Assembly: GCA_037721215.1 (NCBI GenBank)
Contig: JBBJNV010000003.1
Coordinates: 119,646-182,727 of the forward strand
Direction: 5' to 3'
DNA: 63,082 nucleotides
Source of the DNA: Gemmatimonadaceae bacterium
Lineage (GTDB): Bacteria > Gemmatimonadota > Gemmatimonadetes > Gemmatimonadales > Gemmatimonadaceae
The notes below the pieces were generated by a model. The model did not search any database and had not been told where the DNA came from. It worked only from the letters and a program-made list of their open reading frames with translations. Below are positions 2,298-37,968 of this stretch, piece by piece. How positions within the stretch are numbered: position 1 is the first letter of the stretch; each line of letters starts with the position of its first letter. The position numbers and the translations under genes are program-made.

Positions 2298-3422
2298 TTA
2301 CTGATACTGGATATAAAGAGGCGGAGGCGTCAGTCGCAAAACCTCGCCCGGGGTCAGCACTGGATCGCCCTTCTTCGTGTCATTGCCGTAGAAGATCTTG
2401 AATCCCGTGAACTGTACCGGCTCGGCCTGAACATAGTCACGATACGAATCGTACTTGAGCCACGGTGCGCCCCAGCCGTCCATATCAATTACGATCTGAA
2501 CCCGCGGATCGAGTCTGATATCCTTGTAGCCGCTGACCATCTTGCGCGTGAACCTGTGCACTACGAGGATCTTGGGCGGGAGATTGTTCGCCTTCGCAAG
2601 GTTCGAGAGGTAATTCGTGGTCCAGTTGATGTCACCGGCGTTCATCGTGCCGATTTTCGAGCCGGGTCTTTCGCCACCCTTCATCGAGAACTCGGGATCG
2701 AGGCCAAGATGAAAGTTGGGGCGCTTCAGAAATTGCTCGAGTCGCGGGACTTCCTGCTGAACCGTGCTCAATCCCACCTGAATGTCGACGAACACCAGAG
2801 CTTTTCGTGTTGCCGCCCAGGAAGCAACCTTTTCAATGAGAGTGTCCGGCATGCGCAGCCGGTACTTTCCGTCGCGTCCGGGTGCGCCCTGCGCGACGAC
2901 GACGATGAGATGTAGTGCAGGCACGACGGGATGAGCGGGATCGGCGCGGTTCCAGGCGGCGACATCACGATCGAGGCGGGCGAGCATGTCGTCGGATTTA
3001 TATTCGCCGAGTATTCCCATCCGCTTGGAGAGCGGGTTGCCGTAATAGGCGACGACGCGCTTCGCGGGGAAGATCGAACCCGGAAGAACCGCCGGGCCCT
3101 TCACCGGCCAGCGGGTTTCCTTTGCGCCAGCGCGAATGGCGGAGACCAGCGCGATGCTGTCTTTCTTGCTGCGGCCACGAACCGAGGGCACGGTGATGGG
3201 AGCCGGTTTTGCCGGGGCACTGTCGCCGGCAGCAGAGTCAGCGGGCTGTGCCGGCTGACCGGGCGACATCGTAGCGGAGTCAACCGCCACGACTGAAACC
3301 GGATCCATAGCGGGCACCGGCACGTTGGATATTGCGGTCGAGGGCTCTGCATCGTTCATCGTGCAGGCGGCGAGCAGCGAGAGGGCAAGTGCGCCCAGGG
3401 CGAAAAGACCAGGAGTTTTCAT
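2298..3422 (-). CDS. Conserved lipoprotein of unknown function
   Basis: A 374-residue protein with a lipoprotein signal: short basic n-region (MKTPG), hydrophobic core and lipobox LLAAC with Cys20. Then comes a low-complexity Ser/Pro/Ala linker (about residues 25-80) that probably spans the periplasm, followed by a compact domain of about 280 residues. That domain has repeated hydrophobic strands (RVVAYYGNP, LHLIVVVAQ, KALVFVDIQVG, KILVVHRF, VQIVIDMDGWG) and acidic strand ends (LDPEF), like a TIM-barrel glycosidase-type fold. I do not recognise a specific activity. It follows the aldehyde dehydrogenase gene upstream of it on the same strand side by only 86 bp but is read first, so the two could share a transcript. 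Confidence 0.75.
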   Translation of the reverse strand: MKTPGLFALGALALSLLAACTMNDAEPSTAISNVPVPAMDPVSVVAVDSATMSPGQPAQPADSAAGDSAPAKPAPITVPSVRGRSKKDSIALVSAIRAGAKETRWPVKGPAVLPGSIFPAKRVVAYYGNPLSKRMGILGEYKSDDMLARLDRDVAAWNRADPAHPVVPALHLIVVVAQGAPGRDGKYRLRMPDTLIEKVASWAATRKALVFVDIQVGLSTVQQEVPRLEQFLKRPNFHLGLDPEFSMKGGERPGSKIGTMNAGDINWTTNYLSNLAKANNLPPKILVVHRFTRKMVSGYKDIRLDPRVQIVIDMDGWGAPWLKYDSYRDYVQAEPVQFTGFKIFYGNDTKKGDPVLTPGEVLRLTPPPLYIQYQ

Positions 3423-3666: not shown

Positions 3667-3695
3667 TTGCACAATGGCGGCGCGTCCACCATAAT
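3667..3695 (+). promoter_or_regulatory. Sigma-70-type promoter for the phhA leader
   Basis: The -35 element TTGCAC (3667-3672), a 17-bp spacer and the -10 element CATAAT (3690-3695) form a good vegetative promoter. The predicted start near 3702 lies just upstream of a short leader reading frame and about 165 bp before phhA. Confidence 0.55.
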
Positions 3696-3705
3696 ACAGA
3701 ACAAT

Positions 3706-3792
3706 ATGCTCACTCTCGCCCGCCTCTTTCATTCCTACCGCAGCTATCGGAAAAACTCCGGAAGCTGTGGGCGATCGCGTGTTGTTGTGTAG
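3706..3792 (+). CDS. Putative leader peptide upstream of phhA
   Basis: A 28-codon frame (begins MLTLARLFHSYRSYRK) starts a few bases after the predicted transcription start and ends 18 bp before a terminator hairpin. Codons for Phe (TTT), Tyr (TAC) and Tyr (TAT) fall within seven residues, and the second Tyr codon is inside the hairpin at 3738-3770. This is the arrangement expected for ribosome-mediated attenuation by phenylalanine or tyrosine supply. There is almost no room for a ribosome-binding site, so translation would be nearly leaderless. It is an inference from position and composition; no homologue is known to me. Confidence 0.35.
   Translation: MLTLARLFHSYRSYRKNSGSCGRSRVVV
3738..3770 (+). 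promoter_or_regulatory. Leader hairpin (possible pause or anti-terminator element)
   Basis: Arms CCGCAGCT and AGCTGTGG pair over 8 bp (one G-U), a 2x2 internal loop follows, then CGGA/TCCG closes around AAAAC. The hairpin overlaps the Tyr codons of the putative leader peptide. The left arm CAGCTA (3741-3746) is also complementary to TAGCTG at 3790-3795, which would give an alternative fold. Confidence 0.45.
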
Positions 3793-3820
3793 CTGACTTT
3801 ACGCAAACGTTCCCCCCTCA

Positions 3821-3847
3821 GCCTCCGAATCCTCGGGGGCTTTTTTT
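3821..3847 (+). terminator. Intrinsic terminator in the phhA leader
   Basis: The stem GCCTCC/GGGGGC with an 8-nt loop is followed at once by seven T residues. It ends about 10 bp before the phhA ribosome-binding site (AAGGAG) and has no gene upstream on this strand that it could serve, which argues for a conditional (attenuator) terminator. Confidence 0.7.
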
Positions 3848-3867
3848 GTTTTCAGCAAGGAGATCCA

Positions 3868-4608
3868 ATGCAGACCGAAACTCAGGCATCGCCGCCGAAG
3901 TTCATCGAGCAGAAATGGAGCGATTACACGGCCGAGCAGCACGACGTGTGGCGCATCCTGTACGAACGCCGAATGACACAGCTCGTGGACAACGGCAGCA
4001 AGGTCTTTCTGAATGGCGCGGAAACGATCGGTCTCCGTCGCGACAGTGTCCCTGATCTGGCGGGAGTAAACGCGCAACTCGGCGCCATCACCGGTTGGGA
4101 GGCCGTGCCGGTCGCCGGATTTCTGCCCGCGCGGGAGTTCTTCGCGTGTCTTGCCCAACGCAAGTTCCCGACGACAATCACTATCCGGCCGCGGGAGCAG
4201 CTGGATTACCTGCCCGAGCCGGACATCTTCCACGATGTTTTCGGGCATGTGCCGCTGCACTCCGATCCGGCTTTCGGCGATTTCCTGCAGCACTACGGCA
4301 AAGCCGCGTCCGCGGCAGAAAGCGATGCCGATGTGCTGCGAATGACCCGGCTTTTCTGGTTTACGATTGAATTCGGGCTGGTGCGCGAGGATGGTAAGGT
4401 CAGGGTGTACGGAAGCGGCCTGATATCATCGCACGGGGATGCCGCCAACGCGCTCGGCCCGAATTGCGATCGCCGGCCGTTCAGTCTAGACGCAGTGTTC
4501 GACCAGCACTTCGAGATCGATCATCTGCAGGATGTGCTCTTCGTCGTGGAGTCGTTCGATCAGTTGTTCGAGGCGGTGACGGAGGCTGAGCGGAGGATTG
4601 CGAAATGA
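3868..4608 (+). CDS. phhA: Phenylalanine 4-monooxygenase
   Basis: A 246-residue non-haem iron hydroxylase that converts phenylalanine to tyrosine with tetrahydropterin and O2. The three iron ligands are recognisable: His122 and His127 in FHDVFGHVPLH and Glu168 in FWFTIEFGL. The pterin/substrate segment RPREQLDYLPEPD precedes them and YGSGLISSHGD follows. The length fits bacterial single-domain enzymes without an ACT domain. An AAGGAG Shine-Dalgarno sits 7 bp before the ATG. It appears monocistronic, downstream of a promoter, a short aromatic-codon leader and a terminator, so expression is probably controlled by attenuation. No pterin dehydratase (phhB) is in the window. Confidence 0.95.
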   Translation: MQTETQASPPKFIEQKWSDYTAEQHDVWRILYERRMTQLVDNGSKVFLNGAETIGLRRDSVPDLAGVNAQLGAITGWEAVPVAGFLPAREFFACLAQRKFPTTITIRPREQLDYLPEPDIFHDVFGHVPLHSDPAFGDFLQHYGKAASAAESDADVLRMTRLFWFTIEFGLVREDGKVRVYGSGLISSHGDAANALGPNCDRRPFSLDAVFDQHFEIDHLQDVLFVVESFDQLFEAVTEAERRIAK

Positions 4609-35724: not shown

Positions 35725-36990
35725 TCACGCCCGTGATCCCTCCACCAATGCGCGCACTTCCCTGAGCCTCGCCCCAATCACTGGCGCTTCGGGGAGAATA
35801 CCCGCGAGAACCTCCGTAGTCTTGAGCCCGTTACCAGTGATGCACAACACGACTTCGTCGTCATCGTTGAATCTTCCCTGCGCTGCAAGCGCAAGCGCGC
35901 CCCCCAACGTCACCCCGCCGGCCGTTTCCGTGAAAACACCGGTGCTCTCAGCGAGGAGGCGAATGCAATCCACGATTGCCTGTTCGCTCACTCGCGCCGC
36001 CCAACCTCCGCTGTCGACGATCGCACGTCTCGCGAACAATCCGTCGGCCGGATTTCCAATAGCTATCGAACGCGCAATGGTGTCAGGCACCACCGGAGTG
36101 ATCGCATCGGCTCCGCTCTCGACAAGATTGACGATAGGTGCGCAGCCACATGCCTGGGCTCCATAGATGCGCGGCGCCTGGCCGCCCACAAGGTTCGCGT
36201 CAGCGAATTCATCAAATCCCTTTCGTAATTTCGTAACCAGCGATCCGCCAGCCATCGGGGCAACTACGGCAGTCGGAAGCCGCCACCCCAACTGTTCGGC
36301 GATCTCGAACGCCATCGTCTTGGACCCTTCGCCATAGTAGCCACGCAGGTTCACGTTCACGATTCCCCAGCCGAACTCATCAGCCACCTGCGCGCAGAGA
36401 CGGTTGACGTCGTCGTAATGGCCGCGCACCCTCACGAGGTTTGGTCCGTGCACGGCAGTCGCCATGACTTTACCGAGCTCGAGGTTTTCAGGGATGAATA
36501 TCCACGCCTTGAGTCCGGCGCGGGCGGCCTGTGAAGCGACGGCGTTGGCGAGATTTCCTGTCGATGCGCAGCCGATCGTATCGAGCCCGAACGCGGCAGC
36601 CGCATTGATTGCGGTAGCGACAACGCGATCCTTGAATGACAGCGACGGATGCGAAACGCTGTCGTTCTTTACCCACACGCGGGCGACGCGAAGCACTGAC
36701 GCGAGCCGAGGCGCCTCGACCAGCGGAGTGAACCCCGTATCCAGCGAAAGCGCGGGCTCGCCGTCAAAGGGAAGCCACTCTTTGTAACGCCAGAGCGAAG
36801 CCGCGCGAGACGCGATCACTTTCCGCGTCGGGAGGACGCGCGCCGGATTTGGGAACGGATCGATGGGGCCCAGGCACTCGTCGCAGATAGCGACTGGAGC
36901 CGCGTCGTACTCGGCGGCGCACACGCGGCAGCGTTGCGGACGCGGACGCAGGGAATCGACTGCCACATTCGGATGGACGTTTGTGGTCAT
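35725..36990 (-). CDS. thrC: Threonine synthase
   Basis: A 421-residue fold-type II PLP enzyme converting O-phosphohomoserine to threonine. The N terminus carries a rubredoxin-like zinc knuckle (CRVCAAEY, ICDECLGP). The PLP lysine is in PSLSFKDRV, followed by GCASTGNLANAVASQAARAG. Catalytic-domain segments VVAPMAGGSLV and CITGNGLK also fit. In the operon it lies between panB (48-bp gap) and thrB. Because it sits with a sulfur carrier and its activator, an alternative role as a sulfhydrylase on the same substrate is conceivable but not shown. Confidence 0.92.
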   Translation of the reverse strand: MTTNVHPNVAVDSLRPRPQRCRVCAAEYDAAPVAICDECLGPIDPFPNPARVLPTRKVIASRAASLWRYKEWLPFDGEPALSLDTGFTPLVEAPRLASVLRVARVWVKNDSVSHPSLSFKDRVVATAINAAAAFGLDTIGCASTGNLANAVASQAARAGLKAWIFIPENLELGKVMATAVHGPNLVRVRGHYDDVNRLCAQVADEFGWGIVNVNLRGYYGEGSKTMAFEIAEQLGWRLPTAVVAPMAGGSLVTKLRKGFDEFADANLVGGQAPRIYGAQACGCAPIVNLVESGADAITPVVPDTIARSIAIGNPADGLFARRAIVDSGGWAARVSEQAIVDCIRLLAESTGVFTETAGGVTLGGALALAAQGRFNDDDEVVLCITGNGLKTTEVLAGILPEAPVIGARLREVRALVEGSRA

Positions 36991-37038: not shown

Positions 37039-37968
37039 TCACCTCGCGATCACCAGCTCGGCCGGGAACGAATTCTCGTGCGCCACGCACGGAGGAGCCT
37101 CGATCCGCAGGTCGCGCACGTTTTCCCGCAGGTCATGAATCTCGGCTTCCTGTTCGCGGGATATCGCGTAACAGTGTTCCGGCCCCGGGAAACGAGCGCC
37201 GCGCACGTCATCGGCATACGCGCGGAAAACACGCTCGATCTCCTCGCCCACACCTCCGTACCGCTTGACGAAGCTCGGCCGGATGTCTCCGACAAAATTG
37301 CCGAGTATGTCGTGGGAGATAACGAGCTGGCCGTCAACGTGCGGGCCCGCCCCGATCCCGTACACCAGGATCCCGACGCTCTCCCGCACAAGCGCCGCCG
37401 TCTCAGCGGGCATCGCCTCCAGCAGCAGAGCAAAGGCGCCCGCCTCCTGCAACGCGATGGCGTCGTCCACGAGTTTTTCCGCGGCAGCGCGGGATTTGCC
37501 CTGAACCCGGTAGCCACCCAGCTGGCCCAGCGACTGCGGCGTGAGTCCCAGGTGTCCCATGACGTTGATGCCGGCGTCGGTCATTGCCCGCACGCGCGAT
37601 GCAACGCGTGAGCCCCCCTCGCATTTGACGGCGTCGCACCCGAGCGCGACAAACCGTCCAGCGCTGATAATTGCCGTCTCGTCAGATGGCTGATACGAGA
37701 GGAAGGGCAGATCTCCGACGACGAAGCTGTACGTGCTCGCTCGACAGACACTGCGGACGAAGACAATCATCTCGTCCATGCCGATGCCAAGCGTATTGGG
37801 AAGCCCCATCATCGTCATCGCCGCCGAATCCCCAACGAGCAGCATGTCGACTCCGGCGCGTTCGGCAAAAGCAGCCGTAGCGTAATCGTAGGCGGTAACG
37901 AAGACAGCTTTTTCTCCACGTTCACGAAAAGCGGCCAGCGTTGCAGTCGTGACTTTCTTGCGTGTCAT
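37039..37968 (-). CDS. panB: 3-methyl-2-oxobutanoate hydroxymethyltransferase
   Basis: A 309-residue PanB, first enzyme of pantothenate synthesis (ketoisovalerate plus methylene-THF to ketopantoate). Motifs: FVTAYDYATA, LLVGDSAAM with the Mg ligand, LPFLSYQ, VKCEGG, VMGHLGLTPQS, and ISHDILG. Residues after about 265 are an extended tail. It is the first gene of a five-gene minus-strand operon and has a 190-bp leader containing a terminator hairpin. Confidence 0.95.
   Translation of the reverse strand: MTRKKVTTATLAAFRERGEKAVFVTAYDYATAAFAERAGVDMLLVGDSAAMTMMGLPNTLGIGMDEMIVFVRSVCRASTYSFVVGDLPFLSYQPSDETAIISAGRFVALGCDAVKCEGGSRVASRVRAMTDAGINVMGHLGLTPQSLGQLGGYRVQGKSRAAAEKLVDDAIALQEAGAFALLLEAMPAETAALVRESVGILVYGIGAGPHVDGQLVISHDILGNFVGDIRPSFVKRYGGVGEEIERVFRAYADDVRGARFPGPEHCYAISREQEAEIHDLRENVRDLRIEAPPCVAHENSFPAELVIAR

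Follow-up and report, generated by a model that had tools for sequence, protein, structure and literature searches.

A predicted tyrosine-sensing leader-peptide attenuator upstream of phenylalanine hydroxylase is one member of an attenuator family in Gemmatimonadota

Leader-peptide attenuation is a classical mode of bacterial gene control, and bacterial phenylalanine hydroxylase has mostly been described as a catabolic enzyme under the control of protein regulators. The locus analyzed here raises the question whether a phenylalanine hydroxylase gene can be controlled by an attenuator and which amino acid such an attenuator would sense. It is located in a stretch of 63,082 nucleotides from a Gemmatimonadaceae bacterium (the window), in which phhA (3868-4608, forward strand) encodes a class I phenylalanine 4-monooxygenase of 246 amino acids that matches Pfam PF00351 and reaches 305.5 bits against NCBIfam NF008877 (cut-off 247). 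An earlier note had proposed a candidate attenuator responding to aromatic amino acids directly in front of this gene. The analysis leads to the reading, to which we assign a probability of about 0.88, that this leader attenuates transcription by way of a translating ribosome, with tyrosyl-tRNA as the sensed signal and phhA being controlled as a gene for tyrosine synthesis.

The elements described in the earlier note, i.e., a promoter, a 28-codon frame with one Phe and two Tyr codons and a hairpin on the Tyr codons, are present within 3667-3867. The predicted promoter (3667-3695, forward strand as are all following elements) consists of a -35 box TTGCAC (3667-3672), a 17-nt spacer and a -10 box CATAAT (3690-3695), an arrangement for which about one similar site per 3.6 kb is expected by chance. 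Transcription is predicted to start approximately 3-4 nt upstream of the ATG of the leader ORF (3706-3792), which encodes the peptide MLTLARLFHSYRSYRKNSGSCGRSRVVV followed by a stop codon, has no room for a Shine-Dalgarno sequence and is kept in frame in relatives. Its single Phe codon (TTT) is at position 8, and the codons regarded as regulatory from modelled stalling and conservation are the Tyr codons TAC (codon 11, 3736-3738) and TAT (codon 14, 3745-3747). A hairpin formed by segments 1 and 2 (3738-3770, -21.0 kcal/mol) spans both Tyr codons and has 13 bp instead of the 12 bp noted before; in its two closest relatives, L002 and L003, a similar hairpin can form from changed sequence. Between the leader ORF and phhA follows an intrinsic terminator (3820-3847), detected by scanning and supported by covariation over 26 leaders, with a stem of nine pairs including one G-U at 3820-3841 and the described seven T residues at 3841-3847. 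As the upstream gene (2298-3422, minus strand) is divergent from phhA, the terminator is not needed by any upstream transcript, as had been stated. The phhA ribosome-binding site AAGGAG follows at 3857-3862.

Two features were absent from the earlier note, the wider family described below and the antiterminator. The 5' side of the latter, segment 2 (3759-3773; CGGA, GCTG, GGG, G), can pair with segment 3 (3814-3827; CCCC, CAGC, TCCG), forming a duplex of -19.6 kcal/mol in which CGGA/TCCG, GCTG/CAGC and GGG-G/CCCC are separated by single mismatches. Segment 3 overlaps the 5' arm of the terminator and is common to both structures, so that antiterminator and terminator helices are mutually exclusive. 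The energy of a duplex between leader ORF and terminator arm was tried as a test and discarded as weak, with 33-38 of 200 codon shuffles being as good for the window alone, because GC-rich leaders pair by chance. Support for the pairing of segments 2 and 3 rests on its position, on comparison and on the ribosome model. Taken alone, the promoter and terminator scans are at about chance level, and the leader region folds better than 200/200 shuffles (z -4.0). What lifts the site above chance is its conservation, as seen in the score of the covariance model R1 (66.7 bits, E 1.6e-17 within the genome, with the window being part of the R1 seed alignment) and in the many R1 copies elsewhere that were not in the seed.

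Comparison of the leader across relatives, as had been proposed, shows that hairpins and frame are conserved and covary; a lack of conservation, set beforehand as refutation, was not seen. Among 110 phhA loci fetched for this comparison, 26 distinct loci have a leader of 21-30 codons with 2-5 Tyr codons, followed by a terminator and phhA. They are mostly from Gemmatimonadota, with four in metagenome-assembled genomes (MAGs) labelled Acidobacteriota (L043, L044, L051, L055), and Gemmatimonadetes MAGs are the nearest relatives that bear a name. The conserved core comprises the TAT/TAC run, CACGGG(A/C)CG inside the ORF, the terminator GGCCCGTG...CACGGGCC and the T run; in the window, as in L002 and L003, letters of this core are replaced with retention of the pairings. 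In the alignment of the 26 leaders (A1), 93.5% of the terminator cells are paired and 8 of 12 pairs are changed on both sides. The antiterminator helix is paired in 88.4% of cells compared with 26-43% in slid controls (about 25-45% for both helices), 6 of its 10 pairs have changes on both sides and its covariation exceeds 500/500 shuffles. A second alignment (A2) of about 99 full-length matches was made to a model containing the terminator only and not fitted to the antiterminator; here the antiterminator is paired in 90.5% of cells (27-42% when slid), with 14 double-change cells versus 2.7 in shuffles. The slid controls weigh more than the shuffles because sequence kinship inflates shuffle tests.

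Of 48 genomes with class I phhA, at least 32 have the leader directly upstream of the gene. Most of the exceptions are accounted for by nine genus-mates (L004-L012), in which phhA is found directly behind an ORF identified by eye as histidine-kinase-like, with neither leader nor terminator; the sequences suggest that the attenuator disappeared, or was not acquired in the first place, where phhA belongs to another operon. Neither leader nor terminator was detected for the planctomycete and most of the acidobacterial phhA loci among L057-L110.

Which amino acid is sensed was addressed by relating the codon run to the downstream gene in distinct leaders preceding phhA (32), DAHP synthase (59), hisG (10) and pheA (5). 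To assign the downstream genes, tblastn was run with queries for phhA, DAHP synthase, chorismate mutase, prephenate dehydrogenase, HisG, HisD and prephenate dehydratase; HMM libraries confirmed the identity of most of these queries. All 32 phhA leaders contain at least two Tyr codons and 26 of them no Phe codon (mean 3.5 Tyr and 0.2 Phe per leader). DAHP synthase leaders have 3.6 Tyr and 1.6 Phe, pheA leaders 3.8 Phe and hisG leaders 6.3 His codons each, with at least two His codons in 10/10 and at least two Tyr codons in 0/10 of the hisG leaders. Label permutation (10,000 trials) reached the observed association never for His with hisG, once for Phe with pheA and never for Tyr minus Phe with phhA. 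The codon run of the short ORF thus appears to match the amino acid whose synthesis the controlled gene serves, and since PhhA makes tyrosine, the attenuator before phhA would be of the biosynthetic type. The proposed attenuator is strongly supported by these sequence comparisons together with the ribosome model; of the two aromatic amino acids suggested originally, Tyr would be the signal and Phe would not, which is a correction.

The leader before phhA is one member of a family in Gemmatimonadota whose codon run (Tyr, Phe or His) tracks the downstream operon, as judged from the compared sequences. R1 matches were found in 172/288 genomes of the order (E <= 0.001) and, in a sample of 395 genomes from the phylum, in 165 (E <= 1e-5), among them members of further families that belong to the class but not to the order; partial matches on reverse strands were discounted, the terminator being palindromic. 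The family is widespread and, judging from the open-access literature, apparently undescribed so far. The same chassis with Tyr/Phe codons precedes operons of DAHP synthase and, usually, chorismate mutase, often with tyrA behind, and the hisG, pheA and phhA leaders differ mainly in the codon run. The genome of the window itself has three leaders, namely the phhA leader, MSCLRRCYASYYYETPITGRARRRALD before a DAHP synthase-chorismate mutase-tyrA operon (L157) and MLRTPASNAHAYHHHPLRAGAIARASVTG before hisG (L179).

As further observations on this chassis, Phe-run leaders occur before pheA (prephenate dehydratase) at L173, L215, L222, L243 and L219, in some cases followed by an ilvD-like ORF, and His-run leaders before hisG-hisD at L159, L163, L164, L172 and L179, the last being the locus from the window's own genome.

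How translation could be coupled to termination is suggested by the start of the leader and by a fold model. TTGAC occurs within 60 nt upstream of 91/108 leader ATGs (1/49 in a control stretch), with 81 occurrences at a spacing of 34-39 nt that peaks at 36 nt (39 nt in the window), and no Shine-Dalgarno signal was found before the ATGs of the 108 leaders. Most leaders are therefore predicted to be leaderless, i.e., to start at the predicted transcription start, as is reportedly also the case for the uORF of Sinorhizobium meliloti trpL. In the fold model a 30-nt ribosome footprint is moved along the RNA, and the RNA behind the ribosome may refold. The modelled probability that segment 3 of the window is paired with the leader is 0.73-0.78 when the A site is at codons 9-14, including Tyr codons 11 and 14, compared with 0.24 for a stall at Phe codon 8, 0.18 at the stop codon and 0.23 if no ribosome is present; among 300 leaders whose codons were permuted while the Tyr codons stayed in place, not one equalled this switch. 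Across 99 leaders, values of mostly 0.6-0.8 persist up to the regulated run and drop to about 0.3 over the next four codons. An earlier fold model blocking everything upstream of the ribosome gave no contrast for the DAHP synthase and HisG leaders, whereas the footprint model does. Stalling at or around the regulatory codons, and not elsewhere, is thus modelled to free the antiterminator, with a weaker contrast near the stop codon in relatives. There the probability rises again in many cases and the antiterminator stays accessible to some extent in this crude model, so that the off state in these relatives probably hinges on timing or kinetics and on re-formation of the 1:2 hairpin. The repressed state near the stop codon would be the weakest step of the mechanism.

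According to the proposed mechanism, transcription would start a few nucleotides before the ATG, and a ribosome would load on the near-leaderless ORF and trail RNA polymerase. When charged tRNA-Tyr runs low, the ribosome would come to a halt on one of the Tyr codons (11 or 14) and cover segment 1, segment 2 would pair with segment 3, no terminator would form, phhA would be transcribed and PhhA would then make Tyr from Phe. With sufficient Tyr the ribosome would proceed, segment 2 would be masked or return into the 1:2 hairpin, which would also sequester it when no ribosome is stalled, and the terminator would form and stop transcription. We infer that phhA is regulated in this way and would respond to tyrosine limitation in cells.

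Points against a tyrosine attenuator include the single Phe codon of the window leader and the phhA genes of the nine genus-mates, which lack the leader. The Phe codon at position 8 could mean that Phe, the substrate of PhhA, is sensed and induces or represses the gene, and for catabolic phhA, control of the PhhR type has been described (PMC1173090, accessible portion). This is very improbable, as 26/32 phhA leaders have no Phe codon, a stall at codon 8 gives an antiterminator probability of only 0.24, and the true Phe-run leaders of the family precede pheA; moreover, attenuation is lifted when the sensed amino acid is lacking, and for an enzyme that consumes Phe a shortage of Phe would make no sense as a signal. 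The chance-level scans would fit a constitutive terminator with incidental ORF and hairpin, an explanation that we consider extremely unlikely because conservation and covariation extend over the frame and codon run of the leader and over both alternative helices, and because codon identity tracks the downstream gene over four gene classes.

Some attenuators work through a bound ligand or protein, and the strong, stable leader hairpin might be seen as a riboswitch or a protein-binding site rather than as part of a ribosome sensor. However, for the leader no Rfam riboswitch or T-box reached the gathering threshold, the best weak match being suhB with 19.5 bits versus 41, and in-frame codon runs and complementary segments are conserved instead of a fixed aptamer, making this explanation hardly credible. 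Termination would leave a small RNA, and in S. meliloti the trpL leader peptide works in trans according to the available part of the report (PMC7298713), so that the leader could act in trans as small RNA or peptide, or else control phhA translation; the alternative pairing engages the terminator and not the phhA ribosome-binding site (3857-3862), and we give these options little weight. The tyrosine-sensing transcription attenuator remains the preferred reading. It agrees with the attenuator before phhA as originally proposed, in that the leader frame and its Tyr codons are conserved, terminator and antiterminator covary and the ribosome geometry is as expected.

In the whole window, only one known riboswitch or T-box model reached its gathering threshold, the SAM_alpha riboswitch (RF00521; 38083-38158, minus strand; 52.7 bits, gathering threshold 36). 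It is located upstream of a PanB-like ORF (37039-37968, minus strand) followed by a threonine-synthase-like ORF (35725-36990, minus strand), and a SAM switch ahead of such a pair would be unusual.

Physiologically, a Tyr-codon attenuator would mean that the cell treats such a phhA as a Tyr-making gene, which fits the rarer occurrence of tyrA in genomes with phhA. In 163 genomes of at least 90% completeness, tyrA is present in 34/71 genomes with phhA versus 69/92 without (Fisher p 5e-4, uncorrected for kinship), and in 10/25 genomes with leader-phhA versus 93/138 others (p 0.013, likewise uncorrected for kinship; the 25 include G109, whose leader contig stops before its gene). The genome of the window has tyrA. 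None of 26 class I phhA loci with leader adjoins the gene for HPPD (4-hydroxyphenylpyruvate dioxygenase), whereas 8/13 class II phhA loci do and none of these 13 has the leader; one class II phhA (L028) sits behind acetoacetate-CoA ligase. The leader would thereby offer a sequence-level means of separating biosynthetic from catabolic phhA. Concerning homogentisate dioxygenase (HgmA), only an HgmA-like fragment of 47 residues with an in-frame stop was observed in the window's own genome (L257, G000:C8:109480-109620).

The four acidobacterial MAGs have one strong R1 match each, which is the phhA leader, and no R1 match before the other amino-acid genes tested, compared with often several matches in Gemmatimonadota genomes. 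This suggests from the sequences that leader and gene moved together to Acidobacteriota; an error in MAG binning could also explain these copies. Taken together, we regard it as fairly probable that one chassis with a leaderless ORF and swappable Tyr, Phe and His runs controls an amino-acid regulon, that its phhA branch is the first Tyr-responsive leader-peptide attenuator and marks a Tyr-synthesis class of phhA that substitutes for TyrA in some species, and that the leader-phhA unit was passed to Acidobacteriota. One RNA frame with exchangeable sensing codons would constitute a natural experiment on gaining new specificities in a little-studied phylum.

In the open-access literature no published Tyr-responsive leader-peptide attenuator and no report on attenuators in Gemmatimonadota was found, nor any on attenuation of phhA, in agreement with the earlier note, which knew of no described case. 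In Actinobacteria, a comparative study detected neither Phe nor Tyr attenuators (PMC1262725), and a broad terminator screen from 2010 stated that leader peptides were previously known only from Proteobacteria and Actinobacteria and added the Firmicutes (PMC2965389). Attenuators were predicted before tyrA operons, with no Tyr-codon leaders described in the accessible portion of that source (PMC1173090). Among the nearest aromatic systems is aroR before aroF in Corynebacterium glutamicum (Neshat et al. 2014, as cited in the available part of PMC11802643), which resembles the family in its aromatic-codon leader, its DAHP synthase operon and the relief of termination by stalling. Its leader contains Phe-Tyr-Phe and Tyr availability was without effect on the operon (PMC11802643, same part), whereas Phe is nearly absent from the Tyr-run leaders before phhA, which precede another gene and belong to another phylum. 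The uORFC-13-1 motif before aroF of Acholeplasma, a candidate by prediction only, likewise combines a predicted uORF and a terminator in front of DAHP synthase, but has a Phe run and a ribosome-binding site and is from another phylum (PMC8632094). The enterobacterial pheA leader (pheL; RF01859) shares the leader peptide, the mutually exclusive terminator and antiterminator and an aromatic amino acid as signal, but uses Phe codons and controls other genes; the Rfam model RF01859 (Phe_leader) gave 15.8 bits on the window, below the gathering threshold of 55. S. meliloti trpL (peTrpL) is also a leader-peptide attenuator, with Trp codons and trp genes (PMC7298713, available part). Phenylalanine hydroxylase is regulated as well by PhhR and sigma-54 on phhABC of Pseudomonas, where a protein activator acts on a catabolic operon (PMC1173090, accessible portion), in contrast to the window system, which would attenuate at the RNA level and be of the biosynthetic type.
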